Below are positions 6,994 through 39,925 of a DNA stretch of 39,925 bases, piece after piece. This DNA comes from a virus, in the IMG/VR virus record IMGVR_UViG_3300034071_001390, positions 1-39,925 of that record; one strand, 5' to 3'. Position 1 is the first letter of the stretch; each line of letters starts with the position of its first letter. Made by a program: the position numbers and the translations under genes. The notes below the pieces were generated by a model that had not been told where the DNA came from, ran no database searches, and worked only from the letters and a program-made list of their open reading frames with translations.

Positions 6994-8257
6994 GGTGTTC
7001 GAGCCCTTGCTTGCCCCCGCTCGTTACAAGGGCGCATGGGGCGGCCGAGGCTCCGGAAAATCCCACTTCTTCGCTGAGAGCCTGATCGATAACCACACCT
7101 GCGAACCGGGCATGCTGTCGGTTTGTATCCGCGAGGTGCAGAAGTCCCTCAAACAGTCCAGCAAGCGCCTGATCGAAGCCAAGCTTCAGAAGCTAGGGCT
7201 CGGCGAGAAGGACGGCTTCAAAGTGTTCAATGAGGTCATCCAGACGCCCGGTGACGGGCTGATCGCGTTTCAGGGCATGCAGGATCACACTGCCGAGTCG
7301 ATCAAGTCCTTGGAGGGATTCAGGCGGGCATGGGTAGAGGAAGCGCAGACGTTATCGTTTGGGAGCCTTCAGCTATTACGCCCGACGATCCGTGCGTCGG
7401 GATCCGAATTGTGGTTTAGCTGGAATGCCCGCCGCAAGTCCGATCCTGTCGATGCAATGCTGCGTGGCGCATTGCTCCCGACCGGAGCGGTCGTGGTCAG
7501 GGCCAATTGGCGTGACAATCCATGGTTCACTGCCGAGCTTGAGCAGGAGCGGCAGGACTGCCTGAGAATGGAGCCGGACCAGTACGACCATGTGTGGGAG
7601 GGCGGCTATGTGACTGTTAGCTCAGGCGCTTACTACGCTAAGCAGCTAGCGGAAGCCAAGGCTCAGGGGCGCATTGGTCGCGTCTCTGCTGACCCACTGA
7701 TGACCTATCGCGCCATTTGGGATATCGGTGGCACTGGGGCAAAGGCTGACGCCTGCGCTATCTGGATCGTCCAGTATGTGGGCCTAGAGGTTCGGGCGCT
7801 GGACTATTACGAGGCTGTCGGCCAGCCGCTTGCAACTCATGTCGAGTGGCTCCGCAAGCATGGCTATGCTCAGGCGCTCTGTGTCCTCCCCCACGACGGC
7901 GCGGCTAATGACAAAGTGTATGCCGTCAGCTATGAGAGCGCGCTAAGGGCCGCTGGTTTCGATGTTCGGGTCATTCCGAACATGGGTGCCGGCGCTGCGA
8001 TGCGGCGTGTAGAGGAGGCCCGCAGGCTGTTCCCGTCGTTCTGGTTCGATGAGGTCAAGACGGAAGCGGGCAGAGACGCGCTAGGCTGGTATCATGAGAA
8101 AAGAGACGCAGATCGCAATATCGGTCTCGGCCCTAACCACGACTGGTCAAGCCATGGCGCTGATGCCTTTGGCCTGATCGCGGTGGATAGGTCGGACTTC
8201 AACCCCGGAAAGGGCGTCAAGATCAGCGCAGACAGCTTCCAATCGGAATACGCATGA
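6923..8257 (+). CDS. terL: Terminase large subunit (ATPase-nuclease)
   Basis: The motor and cutting subunit. Walker A GGRGSGKS lies at residues 40-47 and Walker B AWVEEAQ at about 136-142. The C-terminal RNase H-like nuclease is represented by AIWDIGGTGAKADACAIW and a late HGADAFG. At 444 residues or slightly less it is close to Sf6 gp2 (470). ATG 6923 overlaps the small subunit by 71 bases. A TTG at 6965 would place the start about 11 residues before FEPLL, as in Sf6 gp2, and is a good alternative. It lies directly ahead of the portal gene. Confidence 0.93.
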   Translation: MVARSKPFPEWNASLSVLQIPTAEVFEPLLAPARYKGAWGGRGSGKSHFFAESLIDNHTCEPGMLSVCIREVQKSLKQSSKRLIEAKLQKLGLGEKDGFKVFNEVIQTPGDGLIAFQGMQDHTAESIKSLEGFRRAWVEEAQTLSFGSLQLLRPTIRASGSELWFSWNARRKSDPVDAMLRGALLPTGAVVVRANWRDNPWFTAELEQERQDCLRMEPDQYDHVWEGGYVTVSSGAYYAKQLAEAKAQGRIGRVSADPLMTYRAIWDIGGTGAKADACAIWIVQYVGLEVRALDYYEAVGQPLATHVEWLRKHGYAQALCVLPHDGAANDKVYAVSYESALRAAGFDVRVIPNMGAGAAMRRVEEARRLFPSFWFDEVKTEAGRDALGWYHEKRDADRNIGLGPNHDWSSHGADAFGLIAVDRSDFNPGKGVKISADSFQSEYA

Positions 8258-25521: not shown

Positions 25522-26031
25522 TTATCTTGTTGTCGGCTGGAAGGTATGCAACAACTTCTTTGCGCTGGCGTAGGCCTCAGAAGCCTTTTCAGGAGAATCA
25601 AAGGTGCCTAAAAACGTCCGCTTCCCGGAAGTGCAGATATGAGAAGTCCAGTTTTTGTTCTTCTCATTCCACGTAGCGCCTATCATTTTTGCGCGGCTGT
25701 CGGATCGGCCTTTTCGGTTTTGATTGTTTTGGGTGTTTGTGGCTTCTCTGAGGTTTTTTATCCAATTATCAGTTTTGACCCCGTTTCTGTGGTCGATTTG
25801 ATCTGTCGGCCAGCACCCATAGAAATGCAGCCAAGCGAGGCGATGTGCAAAATATTTACAATTGCCAATGCTGATCTTCCAGTAGCCTTTGCCTCCTCCC
25901 CGCCCAGCAATATCTCCGACTTGAACGCGCGGGTTAGTCTTGATTTTCCACCGGAAAACTCCGGTATCAGGATCGTAAGAGAGCAGATGCCTAACGCGTT
26001 CGGCAGTCAGGTCGTTACGGTACTTGGGCAT
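25522..26031 (-). CDS. AP2-HNH free-standing homing endonuclease
   Basis: A mobile endonuclease. The HNH core reads AHRLAW (62-67), DHRNG (80-84), NLREATNTQNNQN (93-105); the C-terminal part (GATWNEKNKNWTSHI and onward) is the AP2-type DNA-binding module common in phage homing enzymes. It is close in sequence to the second copy at 37817 (both begin LLSYDPDTG-F-RW and carry LAHRLAW and NLREATN). It interrupts a series of tightly overlapping early genes and has its own long structured 5' region with a sequestered GGAG site, suggesting restrained translation. Confidence 0.9.
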   Translation of the reverse strand: MPKYRNDLTAERVRHLLSYDPDTGVFRWKIKTNPRVQVGDIAGRGGGKGYWKISIGNCKYFAHRLAWLHFYGCWPTDQIDHRNGVKTDNWIKNLREATNTQNNQNRKGRSDSRAKMIGATWNEKNKNWTSHICTSGKRTFLGTFDSPEKASEAYASAKKLLHTFQPTTR

Positions 26032-26035
26032 TGGT

Positions 26036-26110
26036 GTAGCTCCGGCAGACTCCGCAAGCGATGGCCCAAACCGTGCGGAGTTCGGTCTGTCCCCTCCGGA
26101 GCTACCGGAG
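26036..26110 (-). promoter_or_regulatory. Structured 5' element before the HNH gene, copy 1 of a repeated RNA motif
   Basis: On the minus strand a perfect 10-bp stem (26105-26096 with 26045-26036) encloses a 7-bp stem ACTCCGC/GCGGAGT (26081-26075 with 26055-26049). The closing strand contains GGAG, the only ribosome-binding site before ATG 26031. A competing hairpin, CTCCGG (26110-26105) with CCGGAG (26099-26094), would free it. The inner part from GGGGACA to GCGGAGTC aligns well with 32119-32168, which precedes a different gene. This has the logic of a translational switch. Confidence 0.6.
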
Positions 26111-26129
26111 AGTTAGGGCGCACCCAATA

Positions 26130-26290
26130 TAGTAGTTGAGGGGGCCGGCTGGAAGTTGCCGGCTTGCGGGATGGCACTAACCCCGCGCTTGACTGGGTGA
26201 GCCGAAGCGCCCAGTACTACCACCTATGGCAGCCGCGCCCTTGAATTGCGGCATTCCATCTCGCTGCGGATCTCCACTCCGCTACACCCT
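26130..26290 (-). ncRNA. Chain of hairpins upstream of the HNH gene
   Basis: Consecutive stems, best read on the minus strand to match its neighbours: GCCGGC (26158-26163 with 26144-26149), GCGGG/CCCGC (26166-26170 with 26182-26186), CTGGG/CCCAG (26193-26197 with 26210-26214) enclosing a GC-TTCG-GC tetraloop, and a GCGGA/TCCGC hairpin near 26260-26280. The string ACCACCTATGG occurs at both 26218-26228 and 26377-26387. No protein gene is convincing here. It may be the 5' leader of the HNH transcript or part of a larger RNA with 26292-26402. Confidence 0.45.
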
Positions 26291-26524: not shown

Positions 26525-26680
26525 CCCGTACCCGTACCCGTACCCGGACCCGTCCCCGTCCCCGTACCCGTACCCGTACCAGGACCCGTCCCCGTCCCCG
26601 TCCCCGGACCCGTCCCCGTACCCGTCCCCGTACCCGTACCCGGACCCGTCCCCGTCCCCGTACCCGTACCCGTCCCCGTC
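26525..26680. repeat. 26-unit hexamer array (CCCGTA/CCCGTC/CCCGGA)
   Basis: Twenty-six perfectly phased hexamers, each CCC plus GTA, GTC or GGA; one unit is CCAGGA. On the minus strand this is an unbroken ladder of GGG runs every six bases (GGGTAC, GGGGAC, GGGTCC), a very strong G-quadruplex pattern. It lies directly downstream of the leftward gene ending at 26686, so it would be G-rich RNA in the leftward transcript. The three unit types are interspersed, not random mutations of one unit. Confidence 0.95.
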
Positions 26681-26685
26681 AAGAG

Positions 26686-27003
26686 TTACGAGGCGTTCCA
26701 TTTTGACTGCTCCACTTCGATCATGTGGATCATCGCGCGGACGGGCGCGCGCACTGTGCCGACTTTATCGAGTTGCGTTTTGGCTGTCGGGCCATTGACC
26801 AGTTCGCCAAGCCCCCTCGTGGTGCCCCAAACGCGCAGGTTTTTTGCATTGGAGATGACAACAAAGTCACCCTCAATCTGCACGTGACCAACGTACACAA
26901 AGCCCCTATCAAGAACTACGATCTTGATATCTCCGGCCGCTGGCTGTGACTCTTTGCGAACATACTCTACATCGTCAATTTTGATTGATTCAGGCTTACT
27001 CAT
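26686..27003 (-). CDS. Hypothetical early protein, 105 aa
   Basis: Function not recognised. GAGGA lies five bases before ATG 27003, so this start is preferred over ATG 27084, which has no ribosome-binding site and adds a Pro/Glu-rich 27 residues. The product begins MSKPESIKIDDVEYVRKESQ and continues with beta-rich sequence (DIKIVVLDRGFVYVGHVQIE), resembling a small phage domain with one beta sheet. The stop is followed at once by the hexamer array. Confidence 0.75.
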   Translation of the reverse strand: MSKPESIKIDDVEYVRKESQPAAGDIKIVVLDRGFVYVGHVQIEGDFVVISNAKNLRVWGTTRGLGELVNGPTAKTQLDKVGTVRAPVRAMIHMIEVEQSKWNAS

Positions 27004-28637: not shown

Positions 28638-28937
28638 TCATGCTGCACCGCCCCTAGAGCGCACAAGGGCGTCAACAGAATTGACGCCATAGAAGAAACA
28701 ATCCTGAATAAGGCTCTCGTATCCGTTGATCGTTTCAATGCGCTCACGCGGCTTGCAGTCGCGAACGGAAAGATAAAGGGACGTTCCGTCCGTGTAGTAA
28801 ATTGCATGCGTGCTTTCAGCCCACGACCTGAGCTTCCGGCGTGCCGAGCTGTAGACGTTACGGTGCGCTACCTTCTTCTGCGCAGACGTGTAACCGCTCC
28901 AAGTTCCTTCAATTACAAACCGCGATGTCTTGGTCAT
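28638..28937 (-). CDS. First gene of the leftward early operon, hypothetical, 99 aa
   Basis: ATG 28937 has GAGGAG upstream, preferred over 28964. The product (MTKTSRFVIEGTWSGYTSAQ, then YYTDGTSLYLSVRDCKPRER) looks like a small phage protein seen in many early operons, without known function. Beta-rich N-terminus, mixed C-terminus, two cysteines. It is the first gene after the leftward promoter at 28986-29013, about 50 bases from the predicted transcription start. Confidence 0.75.
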   Translation of the reverse strand: MTKTSRFVIEGTWSGYTSAQKKVAHRNVYSSARRKLRSWAESTHAIYYTDGTSLYLSVRDCKPRERIETINGYESLIQDCFFYGVNSVDALVRSRGGAA

Positions 28938-28985
28938 CTCAATCTCCTCGCCCTCGGCCGGCATGGCGTCTCAGGGCATGAGTTA

Positions 28986-29013
28986 ATCCTACACGATCAT
29001 TCGCGCCCGTCAA
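28986..29013 (-). promoter_or_regulatory. Main leftward early promoter
   Basis: On the minus strand -35 TTGACG (plus 29008-29013), a 16-base spacer and -10 TAGGAT (plus 28986-28991). The operator at 29009-29025 covers the -35, so binding there would block RNA polymerase. It drives genes from 28937 down to 23316. Confidence 0.65.
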
Positions 29014-29025
29014 CAATCCGATGAC
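29009..29025. promoter_or_regulatory. Operator O1 of the main switch
   Basis: GTCAACAATCCGATGAC: half-sites GTCAAC and GATGAC (one change from the perfect inverse GTTGAC) around five bases. It overlaps the leftward -35. Its centre is 32 bp from the centre of O2, three helical turns, so two dimers could bind on one DNA face. Confidence 0.65.
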
Positions 29026-29040
29026 ACTTCCCGACGAACG

Positions 29041-29057
29041 GTCAACTATCCGTTGAC
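29041..29057. promoter_or_regulatory. Operator O2 of the main switch
   Basis: GTCAACTATCCGTTGAC is a perfect 6+5+6 inverted repeat. Its right half supplies most of the rightward -35 (TTGACA 29053-29058). The left flank (29030-29046) is identical over 17 bases to 1206-1222 in the second switch, which strongly suggests recognition by the same or related proteins. Confidence 0.75.
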
Positions 29058-29081
29058 AGGCGATTATCCGCGTGCAAGTAT
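29053..29081 (+). promoter_or_regulatory. Main rightward early promoter, predicted leaderless start
   Basis: TTGACA (29053-29058), 17-base spacer, AAGTAT (29076-29081). Initiation about seven bases later falls on or next to ATG 29088, and there is no Shine-Dalgarno before that ATG. Leaderless translation, as for lambda cI from PRM, is the natural reading. Confidence 0.6.
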
Positions 29082-29087
29082 AGCCCC

Positions 29088-29258
29088 ATGAAAAAGCCCA
29101 ACCCACACGCCGCACTAATCGACCAGCTAGGCGGCCCGACCGTCCTCGCTGCCCGCCTTGGAATCGCCAACCGCCAGACGGTCGCTATTTGGAAGGTTCG
29201 CGGTATCCCGGCTAAATGGCTGCTGAAACATCCGAGATTGTTTCGACTTAAAAAATGA
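29088..29258 (+). CDS. Cro/YdaS-like regulator of the main switch, 56 aa
   Basis: A very small helix-turn-helix protein. LIDQLGGPTVLAARLGIANR followed by QTVAIWKVRGIPAKW shows the same layout as the Cro-like protein at 1255 (ALGGASAVARK, ISRQAVRAWK, EIPPA), including the I-W-K recognition helix and the IPAKWLL segment. It is the first gene right of the operators and promoter. No Shine-Dalgarno is present; the predicted transcript starts at or beside its ATG. It should bind the GTCAAC-type half-sites and repress both early promoters as its level rises. Confidence 0.85.
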   Translation: MKKPNPHAALIDQLGGPTVLAARLGIANRQTVAIWKVRGIPAKWLLKHPRLFRLKK

Positions 29259-29267
29259 GGGCATGGC

Positions 29268-31942: not shown

Positions 31943-32088
31943 CCGGCCCGCAGCCCCATAGAGATTACCCGCCCAGACCGGCGAATCGCCTGCTGACCGG
32001 TCTGGCCGACCTGTGCTGGACGCTGGCTATCGTGGCGCTGGCGTATGGCGTCGCGGTGGGGCTTGCGCGGATCATTCTGCCGAGTTAG
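31939..32088 (+). CDS. Small membrane protein, 49 aa
   Basis: ATG 31939 overlaps the methyltransferase stop (ATGA). The product has a Pro/Arg-rich N-terminus (MTGPQPHRDYPPRPANRLL) and one membrane helix (LCWTLAIVALAYGVAVGLA) ending RIILPS. No family recognised. Translational coupling and a clean stop support it. Confidence 0.65.
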   Translation: MTGPQPHRDYPPRPANRLLTGLADLCWTLAIVALAYGVAVGLARIILPS

Positions 32089-32118
32089 AGTTTGCTTGCC
32101 CTCACCCCGTCTGATCCA

Positions 32119-32168
32119 CGGGGGACATGACGAACTCCGCGCGTCCGGGCCCTCGAATTTCTGCGGAG
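32119..32168 (+). promoter_or_regulatory. Copy 2 of the repeated 5' RNA element
   Basis: Reading from GGGGACA to GCGGAGTC, this stretch aligns with the minus-strand element upstream of the HNH gene (about 26094-26049): GGGGACA, then GAACTCCGC, CG, GGGCC, TCG and GCGGAGTC occur in the same order with short differences between. ACTCCGC and GCGGAGT pair (7 bp). The ribosome-binding site TAGGAG and ATG 32182 follow within 14 bases. A shared cis-acting control signal is likely; what it senses is unknown. Confidence 0.6.
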
Positions 32169-32181
32169 TCACGTAGGAGAA

Positions 32182-32406
32182 ATGCCATCAACCAGTCCAC
32201 ACCCAAGTAATACGCGCTCTGCCCGTCGGCGGGGTGCCAGCTTCACACAGCCGGCCGGGGAAGGTGATCCCGGTTATCAAGATCCTAGCGGGGCCTGTGA
32301 CCCGGGCCTAGTGGAACTGGTACGCGCCAGCCACGATAAACAGCCTCCAATCCATCGGAGGGGCACGCCGAACAGCCGGGAGCCGCAGGGTGATCCGGTT
32401 GGCTAA
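32182..32406 (+). CDS. Small basic, proline-rich protein, 74 aa
   Basis: TAGGAGAA immediately precedes ATG 32182. The product is rich in Arg, Pro, Ser and Gly (ARRRGASFTQPAGEGDPGYQ, then CDPGLVELVRASHDK and HRRGTPNSREPQGDP) and probably partly disordered. I have no function for it. It is the gene downstream of copy 2 of the repeated RNA element, which strengthens the case that it is expressed. Confidence 0.6.
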   Translation: MPSTSPHPSNTRSARRRGASFTQPAGEGDPGYQDPSGACDPGLVELVRASHDKQPPIHRRGTPNSREPQGDPVG

Positions 32407-36843: not shown

Positions 36844-37820
36844 CCGACCAACTCGAAAGGCTAGAGGACAGCCTAACGAAAAGTTTGGCCGGTTTCCTTG
36901 CCGGACTCCGTTCTACTAAGAAACCCACAACAGGAACCGACCTTATGACCACCACCGAAACAGTCGCCGCAATCCCCGAGGGCTATACGCCGTGGAACGG
37001 GGGTGATTGCCCGAAGGATGCTCAGGGAAAGCCGGTGAGCGTGATATTCCGCAAAGGCAGGAGAGGCGAGGCTCCCAATGGGCTCCACAATGACTGCTGG
37101 GAGCATTACGGCGAGGGGACCGACATCATCGCCTACCGCATCGAAGCCGCAGTGTCGCAGGCCGAGCCGGTGGCGTGGCGTTGCTTCCATTGCTCCGAAG
37201 AGTTCACGGATCGGGAGGCGGCGGCTCTGCACTTCGGAACGCACGAACATCAAGAGCCGGCATGCATGATCGATATCGCCAAGTTTCGCGAGATGGAGGC
37301 CCTGCAACTGCGCTACGTCGATGAGGATGCGGACGTTCACCGCGCGATGCGTCGGATGGAGAGCGGCCACCAGCAAGCATTGCGCCGCGCTGAAGAGGAC
37401 GGCTACGCGAAGGGGCTGATCGATGCAGTGAAGTATCCGCAGGGCGCGCAGCCAGCAGCGGTGCCGGTGGAGAGCCTTGGCCGCGACGACATCCCCGCAT
37501 TCGGCCCGCTACTGAAATGGATCGCGATGAATTGCGACTTGTCGGACGCTGGAAACTTCGATGGTCGCCCAACAGACGAAGCGGTCGCAGATGCGATTGC
37601 GTGGTGCGAGACGCTGGATATGCCGGAGCCCACCGCCCCGCCTGCGCCCGTTGACCCGCTTGACGACATTCTCGCTGCGTTCGATGAGGCTGTCGAAAGG
37701 GAGTTACCTCGCGTCAGCACGGTCGAATACAACAGCCATGAAATCTGCAAACACTTTGCCGGAGAGTTGCGCGCAAGATTGTCCCGCATCGTGTCCGCCC
37801 CATCCCCGACGACCAAATGA
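36840..37820 (+). CDS. Mosaic hypothetical protein with C2H2-like finger, 326 aa
   Basis: Starts at GTG 36840 by GTGA overlap. The N-terminal 35 residues are followed by an internal ATG at 36945 with AGGA upstream, so a shorter product is possible. Then come GYTPWNGGDCPKDAQG (a small W-rich domain), WRCFHCSEEFTDREAAALHF with following HEH (a C2H2-like zinc finger), a central helical region and a C-terminal acidic helix. This resembles Ea22-type mosaic proteins of lambdoid phages, which join short exchangeable domains. Role unknown. Confidence 0.7.
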   Translation: MTDQLERLEDSLTKSLAGFLAGLRSTKKPTTGTDLMTTTETVAAIPEGYTPWNGGDCPKDAQGKPVSVIFRKGRRGEAPNGLHNDCWEHYGEGTDIIAYRIEAAVSQAEPVAWRCFHCSEEFTDREAAALHFGTHEHQEPACMIDIAKFREMEALQLRYVDEDADVHRAMRRMESGHQQALRRAEEDGYAKGLIDAVKYPQGAQPAAVPVESLGRDDIPAFGPLLKWIAMNCDLSDAGNFDGRPTDEAVADAIAWCETLDMPEPTAPPAPVDPLDDILAAFDEAVERELPRVSTVEYNSHEICKHFAGELRARLSRIVSAPSPTTK

Positions 37821-38341
37821 CCAAACCCAAGAACCGTCCCGAACTCACAGCCGAGCGGCTACGTGAACTGCTTTCCTATGATCCCGATACCGGCCTGTTC
37901 CGCTGGAGGATATCCAGAAGGGGCTCCCCTGCGGGCGAAATTGCCGGGTGCGGCAACGGCGACGGTTATCTGCGGATCAAGATAGACCACAGTCTATGTC
38001 TGGCCCACCGGCTGGCGTGGCTGTACGTCCACGGCAAGTGGCCTGTCGAACAACTAGACCACATAAGCGGCGTGCGTGCCGACAACCGAATCGCCAACCT
38101 GCGCGAAGCGACGAACGCACAGAACCACCAGAACCGAGCGATTAGCCAAAGAAACACTTCAGGTCACATCGGGATTTGTTGGGCTAAGCGCGAAAAGAAA
38201 TGGCGTGCTCGCGTTACGGTAAATAGTCTTGTCGTGCCGCTCGGATATTTCGCCGCCCTCGAAGACGCCATTTCTGCGCGCGCCAAGGCAAAAGCTGAAC
38301 TTCACCAATTCCAACCATTTGATCGGGAGCCCGCGCTATGA
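37817..38341 (+). CDS. Second AP2-HNH homing endonuclease
   Basis: Starts by ATGA overlap inside the operon. The HNH core reads LAHRLAW (62-68), DHISG (81-85) and NLREATNAQNHQN (94-106); the C-terminal half is an AP2-like DNA-binding region. It is paralogous to the enzyme at 25522-26031. Unlike that copy it is fully integrated into the overlap chain, with no separate leader, which suggests older residence or precise insertion. Confidence 0.9.
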   Translation: MTKPKNRPELTAERLRELLSYDPDTGLFRWRISRRGSPAGEIAGCGNGDGYLRIKIDHSLCLAHRLAWLYVHGKWPVEQLDHISGVRADNRIANLREATNAQNHQNRAISQRNTSGHIGICWAKREKKWRARVTVNSLVVPLGYFAALEDAISARAKAKAELHQFQPFDREPAL

Positions 38342-39801
38342 ACCCCATGCAGAATGAACCCGCGGCGCCGCGCGATTGCGTGGAACTGCTGCAATCCTTG
38401 CGATCAGCGCTAGAAGGTGCCGTCAAGCTAATCGAGGACTTAGGCGGAAACGCCAAGCTGCAAATTCGCCAGATTGATGCGATTGACGACGAGCTAACCC
38501 GCCTCGCGTCGAGATCCCAGCCGGCAGGCACTGGCGTCGGCGTTGACGTGACACAAGACGGCGTGACGGTTGCAGTGCGGACCGGTGGCACACTTATTCA
38601 TTGCCAGACCTATCCGTTGCCCCAGCCCGCAGCTGGCGATGTGGCGCTGCCGGAATGCGACATGCCGGTCTATGACTTGCACGGCACGCCCGTACTTGCA
38701 CACTCAACCGACCAACTCCGCGCCTACGGCGACGCCCGCGCCCGCGCAGCCGCAGCTGCATCGCAGAGCGCAGTTTGGTTTATCGACGCCAATGGGCAGC
38801 GCTGGCAAGTCAGCGGGCCGGAGACAGACGAGTTCCGAGCAATAGTTCGGGAGCTGTCTGCCGTTGCGCGCAATGGGGGCGAGGCTGAGACTCTCGCAGA
38901 CGCTTCGTGCTGGCAACATAGACCAGGCGCGTTGTGCCCGTGGCCTGAATCATGCAAGTCGAATGGATGCAGCGCGGTCGAACGTGAGTTATTTCCGGAC
39001 GCGCAGCCCGAGCCCGTCGAGGACTCCGCACTGCAAACCATCATCGCGACTCTGCAGGCTGACTTAAAGTGGAACGAGGAATGCCACCGACGCGACGGGG
39101 AAGAGGTCAACGACGATATGCACGTGAGGCCTCGCGAATTCATGACGCGGCGGACGCTGAATGCCTGGATTGACGTGTTGAAGGGCGTGGGCAAGACCGC
39201 CGGGGGCGGAGGAGTGGATGAGCCGGTCGCGGACGACTTCCGCAGCAGGGAACACCTGTTCCCGTTCGGCCTGAAACTTGGAGCAGCCGCGAAGTTCCTG
39301 ACTGTTCACAGCCCCAAAGGCGAGCGCCCCGGGTGGGGCTGGGAAGCGGAATACTCGCAAGGCAAGGGATACGGCTACTGCAGCCGTGCCGAAGCCGCGC
39401 TGGCCGCGGTTCGTGAGGCGTTCCGCGTCTATCACAATCCGATAGCGGAACTGATAGACCAAGTGCATGACCTTGAGCAGGAAATCAAGCACCGGGACGC
39501 CGCGCCCGCCGGCAGCGGGGAGGCGGTGGCCGCTGCATTTTGGGTGCAAGTGTCCCGGCAGCATGAGGACGATGCGCTGATAATTTGGGAGAACGGCGCG
39601 CAAGAAGTCATTACGCGGGCCGCACAATTTGACGCAGACATGCACACAATCCCCGAAAAAGTAACCACGTCCCCGGAACGTGTACAGATTCCGGCCGAAA
39701 GTACGCACGTCCGCTGCCCGCGCTGCTCCGCACTGATGCCTCTTGGCCTGTCGTGCAAGGGCAACCCGCCAGATGATCCGTGTCCACTGAGAAAAGCATG
39801 A
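38338..39801 (+). CDS. Large mosaic hypothetical protein, 487 aa
   Basis: Ea22-like composition: an N-terminal coiled coil (LEGAVKLIEDLGGNAKLQIR), a YDLHGTPVLAHSTDQLRAYG linker seen in many phage early proteins, a short Cys/Trp segment (CWQHRPGALCPWPESCKSNG), a middle region with a helical DLKWNEECHRRDGEEVND motif, and a C-terminal zinc-type CPRCSALMPLGLSCKGN. Likely assembled from exchangeable modules. It ends by ATGA overlap with the gene that crosses the circle junction. No function can be assigned. Confidence 0.7.
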   Translation: MNPMQNEPAAPRDCVELLQSLRSALEGAVKLIEDLGGNAKLQIRQIDAIDDELTRLASRSQPAGTGVGVDVTQDGVTVAVRTGGTLIHCQTYPLPQPAAGDVALPECDMPVYDLHGTPVLAHSTDQLRAYGDARARAAAAASQSAVWFIDANGQRWQVSGPETDEFRAIVRELSAVARNGGEAETLADASCWQHRPGALCPWPESCKSNGCSAVERELFPDAQPEPVEDSALQTIIATLQADLKWNEECHRRDGEEVNDDMHVRPREFMTRRTLNAWIDVLKGVGKTAGGGGVDEPVADDFRSREHLFPFGLKLGAAAKFLTVHSPKGERPGWGWEAEYSQGKGYGYCSRAEAALAAVREAFRVYHNPIAELIDQVHDLEQEIKHRDAAPAGSGEAVAAAFWVQVSRQHEDDALIIWENGAQEVITRAAQFDADMHTIPEKVTTSPERVQIPAESTHVRCPRCSALMPLGLSCKGNPPDDPCPLRKA

Positions 39802-39925
39802 AAACTGAAACCGTAAAGCTACCAAGGCCAGATTACGCGGCGCCCACGATCTATGAGTACACGGCAGACCAGATGCGCGAGTACGCAGCGCAGGTAGCGG
39901 CGGCCGAGAATTACGGCCTGCTGAG
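39768..39925. repeat. Terminal overlap of the circular genome, right copy
   Basis: Second copy of bases 1-158 with T at 39895 in place of C at 128. It contains the first 128 bases of the small gene that starts at 31 (ATG here at 39798). Confidence 0.9.
39798..39925 (+). CDS. Partial copy of the first gene (truncated by window end)
   Basis: Same reading frame as 31-297; the C-to-T change converts an Ala codon (GCA) to Val (GTA) at residue 33. It is cut by the end of the window and is not a separate gene. Confidence 0.9.
   Translation, partial: MKTETVKLPRPDYAAPTIYEYTADQMREYAAQVAAAENYGLL

Follow-up and report, generated by a model that had tools for sequence, protein, structure and literature searches.

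The same ordered blocks of sequence occur once on each strand of a viral genome, each time ahead of a different gene, and the question that this raises is whether they are copies of one regulatory RNA and, if so, how such an RNA might act. The genome was analysed as a single stretch of 39,925 nt, here called the window. A sequence-only reading had proposed that the blocks are two diverged copies of a cis-regulatory RNA family. The order that it described is present on both strands, with coordinates right to about 2 nt, the blocks spanning 32121-32170 on the plus strand (copy A) and 26094-26048 on the minus strand (copy B). In copy A they comprise GGGGACA (32121-32127), GAACTCCGC (32132-32140), the loop GGGCC (32147-32151) and GCGGAGTC (32163-32170). 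In copy B, GAACTCCGC lies at 26083-26075 and GCGGAGTC at 26055-26048, followed by an HNH gene (26031-25522). Three occurrences of GAACTCCGC were counted, against 0.58 expected. As had also been stated, both copies sit just before a ribosome-binding site, a GGAG-type Shine-Dalgarno (SD) sequence followed by ATG.

The element is larger than the blocks, at 87-91 nt, with 5' ends at 32098 (A) and 26119 (B), and it contains features absent from the earlier description: a hairpin P1, a likely pseudoknot and an SD sequence that may compete for one arm of a second hairpin, P2. At least six copies (A-F) on four contigs make up the family (Table 1). All six share one layout: a -10-like hexamer, 6-7 nt, (G/A)CCC(C)(C), U(C/A)A, hairpin P1, a GACAnnnCGAA-like linker, the P2 5' arm, 5-7 nt, a G-run, 8-12 nt, the P2 3' arm, a spacer of only 3-5 nt, an SD-like segment and ATG.

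Table 1. Copies of the leader, their parts and the genes behind copies A and B. Positions are those of the window unless a contig is named.
Feature	Location	Strand	Details
Copy A	32098..32184	+	Whole leader through ATG; covariance model match 32096-32190 with R1, R2 and R3
A, -10-like hexamer TAGAGT	32086..32091	+	6 nt 5' of element; 4/6 matches
A, P0 5' strand GCCC	32098..32101	+	Pairs with 32147-32150
A, P1 hairpin CCCCGU/ACGGGG, loop CUGAUCC	32105..32123	+	Alignment and pairing analysis
A, P1-P2 linker GACAUGACGAA	32124..32134	+	Conserved; alignment A6
A, P2 5' arm CUCCGC	32135..32140	+	Alternative SD partner; pairing analysis
A, P0 3' strand GGGC	32147..32150	+	In P2 loop; pairing analysis
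A, P2 3' arm GCGGAG	32163..32168	+	Pairing analysis
A, SD segment GUAGGAG	32173..32179	+	4 nt complementary to P2 5' arm
74-aa ORF behind A	32182..32406	+	No Pfam match
Copy B	26029..26119	-	Whole leader through ATG of HNH gene; covariance model match 26029-26121 (R1, R2, R3)
B, -10-like hexamer TATATT	26126..26131	-	Consensus comparison
B, P0 5' strand GCCC	26116..26119	-	Pairing analysis
B, P1 hairpin CUCUCCGG/CCGGAGGG, loop UAGCU	26092..26112	-	Pairing analysis
B, P2 5' arm CUCCGC	26075..26080	-	Pairing analysis
B, P0 3' strand GGGC	26064..26067	-	Pairing analysis
B, P2 3' arm GCGGAG	26050..26055	-	Pairing analysis
B, SD segment GCCGGAG	26040..26046	-	5 nt complementary to P2 5' arm
HNH_3 endonuclease gene behind B, 169 aa	25522..26031	-	PF13392, E 1.4e-14
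Copy C	L127		Upstream of ProQ/FinO gene; found by first pattern scan
Copy D	L141 (also L222)		Found upstream of 85%-identical relative of C's gene
Copy E	L218 8375-8286	-	R2 57.9 bits, E 2.6e-15
Copy F	L218 2798-2711	-	R2 44.1 bits, E 4.4e-11

Distribution of the element

A covariance model (R1) was built from copies C and D only, leaving out A and B, and was searched against 258,684 bases from 11 sources. It matched B at 29.5 bits (E 8.1e-6) and A at 26.7 bits (E 5.2e-5). Beyond C, D and a duplicate locus of C these were the only significant matches, the next best (E 0.095) lying inside a coding gene. This result is an out-of-sample test of the original pair. A second model, R2, built from copies A-D and run over 86,021 bases, revealed the previously unseen copies E and F, both on contig L218, which had been picked up through a pattern for the 5' half only (C-run, P1 and linker); copy E does not fit that pattern and was found by R2. 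The proposal of a family had been staked on further copies existing in phages, and four were found: C on L127, D on L141, and E and F on L218. No seventh copy was found with a model of all six (R3) in 21 sources totalling 414,335 bases.

Other searches were less productive. A loose palindrome scan of viral contigs gave at least 120 stretches and nothing useful; R2 was run on 114 of these loci (14 + 100; L115-L120 left out), and its best match there, L053 (21.7 bits), sits within an integrase-like ORF and was rejected. Pattern scans returned, in turn, nine stretches of which one was genuine (L127), two of which neither was genuine, six in species genomes without the element, and 59 in which R2 finds no element, while the 5'-half pattern gave six, three of them with the element (L127, L222, which is copy D, and L218). 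Weak matches at L141 4015-4109, inside a replication-type ORF, and at L155 3632-3724, L216 and L217 were rejected by eye. In 369 bacterial genomes (the class of a Bordetella) the sole R2 match was the rejected L217. A pattern judged by reading to fit all six copies gave two matches in 399 genomes of the Bordetella's order and one in 385 genomes of the class of a Sphingomonas, with no P1 in the matched letters. These bacterial samples were centred on chance-match loci and not on an identified host, some genomes were covered twice and the first filters were loose, so that they are weak evidence of absence. Rfam 15 yields two tRNAs only at the gathering score in the window, and permissive Rfam scans of A, B, C and F gave nothing at gathering; matches to Moco-II, uup and ROSE-like families, all far below it, were dropped. 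A search of titles and abstracts, with subscription journals mostly outside its coverage, found no published description of the element.

Because several proteins are common to the window, L218 and the L127 contig, the phages concerned are related, though distant from named phages, the best terminase relative among the latter being EBPR podovirus 2 (72.8% identical). The element was not found in EBPR podovirus 2 or three other GenBank phages, nor in the parts of records searched around other HNH relatives (L223-L231). Comparison of A and C with phages by blastn gave short chance matches only (E 2 or more), and the window's HNH query found no relative in viral contigs.

Some further features of these phages may be recorded here. 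The window carries a 158-nt direct terminal repeat, 99% identical (1-158 and 39768-39925), so that the contig is probably a complete genome. Two similar divergent control regions (1140-1449 and 28920-29260), each by eye before a short Cro-like gene, have the string CCCGACGAACGGTCAAC in common, and the phage may have two lysogeny-type switches. A 26-nt inverted repeat, 85% complementary with the halves 48 nt apart and ending GGGGTTTTTC, occupies 2793-2892, in a region that looks largely non-coding and holds two tRNA genes. Hexanucleotide repeats (CCCGTA/CCCGTC) fill 26525-26686, and comparable simple repeats (PSPSPS and the like) are present in ORFs of L127 and L218.

Genes behind the leaders

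The gene behind A had been called unrelated to the one behind B. Across the family the genes do indeed differ, being HNH endonucleases (B, E and F), ProQ/FinO proteins (C and D) and an ORF without a Pfam match (A), but with three of six leaders before HNH genes the association is not random. The HNH_3 match is at 6.8e-18 behind E and 3.6e-13 behind F, and the protein behind B additionally has a sub-threshold match to AP2 (PF00847, 22.2 bits vs a cut-off of 33.3). The gene behind C matches ProQ/FinO (PF04352) at 7e-13 and that behind D at 2.7e-12. The ORF behind A is perhaps not a genuine gene: it lacks any Pfam match, tblastn against 50,697 phage records gave nothing, and its coding signal is weak (codon-position G+C 0.71/0.63/0.57). 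The notion that it is a decayed HNH gene was dropped, as the best match, with E 0.049 over 32 residues, does not convince.

In all, these contigs yielded six HNH_3 genes: two in the window, three in L218 and one in L127. Three of these are without the element, so that an HNH gene need not carry the leader. The second gene in the window (37817-38341), whose product is 58% identical to the HNH protein of E, begins right against the gene before it and shows no trace of the element; this also holds for the HNH gene of L127. The third gene of L218 is preceded by a leader of another kind, containing a long, strong hairpin, GTGAAGGTGGGGCC...GGCCCCACCTTCAC (7151-7290, minus strand). Pieces of the leader seem to recombine separately from the genes: 24 bases over P1 are identical in C (L127 8392-8415) and E (L218 8366-8343, minus strand), which precede a ProQ and an HNH gene, respectively, while D has another P1 than C despite the 85% protein likeness of the genes behind them.

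The presence of ProQ/FinO genes behind C and D brings to mind a protein operator. ProQ/FinO proteins are a family of RNA-hairpin binders, and such a protein in the C/D phages, or another RNA-binding protein of phage or host, might repress translation at the leader as T4 gp32 does at its pseudoknot; the linker GACAnnnCGAA, conserved and unpaired, would suit this. Yet the window has two copies of the leader and encodes no ProQ, and autoregulation by the gene's own product could not apply to HNH and ProQ genes alike, so that we regard this explanation as unlikely, if the best of the alternatives.

Stems and probable pseudoknot

P1 and P2 were assessed in alignment A6 of the six copies, a model-fitted alignment that leans to the structure. 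All 65 of the 65 scorable cells are standard pairs. The earlier proposal had also been made to depend on compensatory changes in the stem, and 8 of the 11 pairs have changed on both sides, no cell being broken. The covariation score of 0.842 compares with 0.254 (sd 0.067) in shuffles and falls to 0.018-0.176 when the alignment is slid. In copy F, P2 is CCAAG/CUUGG vs CUCCGC/GCGGAG, an almost wholly different sequence that is compensatory by plain reading, and P2 was absent from the pattern that located the contig of F. We are therefore highly confident that the RNA structure is real. Unconstrained folds of A, B and C, computed without a pseudoknot, do not give P1 and P2 together; the fold of copy A, over 76 nt, is no better than those of its shuffles (z 0.17), and B, with z -4.0, is the only one to do better in a longer stretch.

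A further helix, P0, is suggested by the complementarity of the 5' C-run to the G-run in the P2 loop. The two runs are of equal length in every copy (A 3/3, B 3/3, C 4/4, D 5/5, E 3/3, F 4/4), and a flanking G-C pair extends P0 in five copies. Equality in all six arises in 12 of 720 permutations, and shuffled loops contain the complement of their own 5' strand at frequencies of 0.006-0.10; both tests were run after the pattern was noticed, and C and D are related. Covariation in P0 is not countable by column, the extra pairs being insertions, and only the run lengths are informative. As a free duplex P0 is predicted at about -6 to -12 kcal/mol. P0 and P2 interleave, and the fold is therefore of the H type, with P1 in its first loop; the pairing of C-run with G-run is likely to form such a pseudoknot.

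Shine-Dalgarno sequence and transcript start

The SD segment is complementary to the P2 5' arm of its own copy over 4 (A), 5 (B), 7 (C), 7 (D), 5 (E) and 5 (F) nt. Between the arm of C and D and the SD segment of the same copy 7 nt can pair, against only 3 with the SD sequences of other groups; for F the figures are 5 and only 2. The SD segment echoes the P2 3' arm in C and D (GCAGAG..GCAGAGG) and in F (CUUGG..CUUGGAG). This tracking was noticed first and tested afterwards, and in A, B and E, where the arm carries CUCC and any GGAG of a P2 3' arm is SD-like, the match is partly trivial. The sample is small: of its six copies, spread over four contigs, C and D are closely related, which leaves about three P2/SD states that are independent. 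Nor do the energies put the two states in the same order in every copy. With P0 left out, bare P1+P2 is favoured in A, B and E and disfavoured in C and D, and in F the two states are equal. In unconstrained calculations the mean unpaired probability of the SD is 0.00-0.45, P2 competing for the arm with which the SD pairs. The complementarity suggests a bistable translational switch.

The -10-like box that stands 6-7 nt upstream of the element in all six copies is weak, with 4, 5, 5, 4, 5 and 3 of six matches to TATAAT at the right distance. In a post hoc comparison, none of 20,000 draws of six positions taken at random in these contigs gave a sum as high as theirs (26/36), the best of four offsets being used for observed and random positions alike. 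Copy D has TTGACC 17 nt upstream of its hexamer; a strict two-hexamer scan gave no promoter at A or B. We infer from the hexamers that the element probably begins at or near the first transcribed base. An intrinsic attenuator is unlikely and was dropped because no terminator-like site was found in either window stretch, around A or B.

A -10-like box before all six copies, three of which precede HNH genes, could also mean that the conserved object is DNA, a promoter, operator or homing target travelling with HNH cassettes, whose RNA fold is incidental; the identity of C and E over P1, with differing genes, would fit. However, compensatory changes on both sides of a pair, P0 runs of matching length and the relation to the SD are what would be expected of an RNA, and the three other HNH genes in these phages do without the element. 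We give this explanation little credence.

Proposed mechanism

On balance we favour the view that the element is a cis-acting structured 5' leader, forming an H-type pseudoknot and most likely exerting translational control. The family, the covariation of P1 and P2, the matched run lengths of P0 and the tracking of the SD by the P2 arm are all read from the sequence. In the pseudoknot state, the 5' end GCCC(C)(C) would pair with GGG(G)(G)C in the P2 loop, P1 being accommodated within the first pseudoknot loop and P2 lying directly upstream of the SD; with the two arms of P2 paired to each other, the SD would be free. In the other state the P2 5' arm would pair with the SD segment and mask it. 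The pseudoknot may be the on state, and the leader may keep HNH and ProQ genes under a common post-transcriptional control. Candidate triggers are a small molecule, a phage or host protein, or folding kinetics only. The earlier interpretation is largely supported, with a putative function as a regulator.

Were the trigger a metabolite, the pseudoknot would be the aptamer of a riboswitch whose ligand frees or masks the SD. A compact H-type pseudoknot, a conserved linker and mutually exclusive pairing of the SD would all suit this, as would the placing of one leader before unrelated genes. Against it, Rfam scans of the window and of A, B, C and F give no riboswitch, the element comes from few phages so far and was not found in the sampled bacterial genomes, and the genes behind it are not metabolic; a riboswitch seems to us improbable.

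Beyond the favoured reading of a translational leader, the element might belong to a new class, a transferable bistable pseudoknot switch with the transcript 5' end locked in, gating the SD of mobile HNH and ProQ/FinO genes, which would then share post-transcriptional control as one regulon answering a common infection signal. This wider proposal is tentative and we consider it rather doubtful. To our knowledge, little is known of cis-regulatory RNAs in phages outside the T4 and lambda groups. A compact leader that occurs twice in one phage before unrelated genes, with strong covariation and an arm competing for the SD, would be a translational switch that is small and self-contained, and would offer a way into the question of what holds selfish HNH genes in check; its occurrence before ProQ/FinO genes is a link to RNA-based regulation.

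Comparison with known systems

The HEARO/OMEGA RNA of IscB is a long guide RNA adjoining another HNH nuclease gene. The resemblance lies in an RNA beside an HNH gene; the window gives no Rfam match to it.

The genes of T4 I-TevI, I-TevII and I-TevIII, segB and mobE of Aeromonas phage Aeh1 have structured leaders that act at the ribosome-binding site (PMC2988022). There a single hairpin masks the site, and a late promoter at the hairpin produces short transcripts that escape. The present element is a structured leader next to an SD, and three of its six copies precede HNH_3 genes, two ProQ genes and one the unassigned ORF, but it is probably a two-hairpin pseudoknot with a competing helix. No late promoter of the T4 type at the hairpin is seen in the sequence, the -10-like box being upstream of the whole element in all six copies.

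The gene 32 leader of T4, T2 and RB69 offers another 5' pseudoknot in a phage mRNA leader, one that controls translation (PMC3014915). Gene 32 encodes a single-stranded DNA-binding protein (SSB) that binds this pseudoknot, and an A+U-rich tract overlaps its ribosome-binding site. The genes here are HNH, ProQ and the ORF, with neither an SSB nor an A+U-rich tract, P2 and the SD segment being only 3-5 nt apart.

The put RNAs of HK022, of about 70 nt, have two stem-loops and occur in two copies per phage downstream of early promoters (PMC9378689); they bind the zinc-binding domain of the RNA polymerase beta' subunit and suppress termination. By analogy, our nascent leader might stay on RNA polymerase so that the operon is read through terminators. 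It has two hairpins within about 70-90 nt and is probably promoter-proximal, and in the window its two diverged copies belong to separate transcription units on opposite strands, an arrangement also found for putL and putR (PMC9378689). Here P1 and P2 are supported by covariation, and the transcript starts are putative. The target of put is RNA polymerase, and put has no tie to an SD, whereas the present element abuts an SD and ATG in six of six copies and has an SD-complementary arm, for which put would have no need. The pairing topology differs as well, the 5' end pairing into the loop of the second hairpin, and some copies stand before a lone HNH gene, others before an operon-like run of genes. 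We think antitermination of this kind very unlikely.

The element is assigned to none of the three, a defining feature of the T4-type hairpins and of the gp32 pseudoknot being absent. Its nearest counterparts are the T4-type hairpins in biology, gp32 in topology and put in layout.
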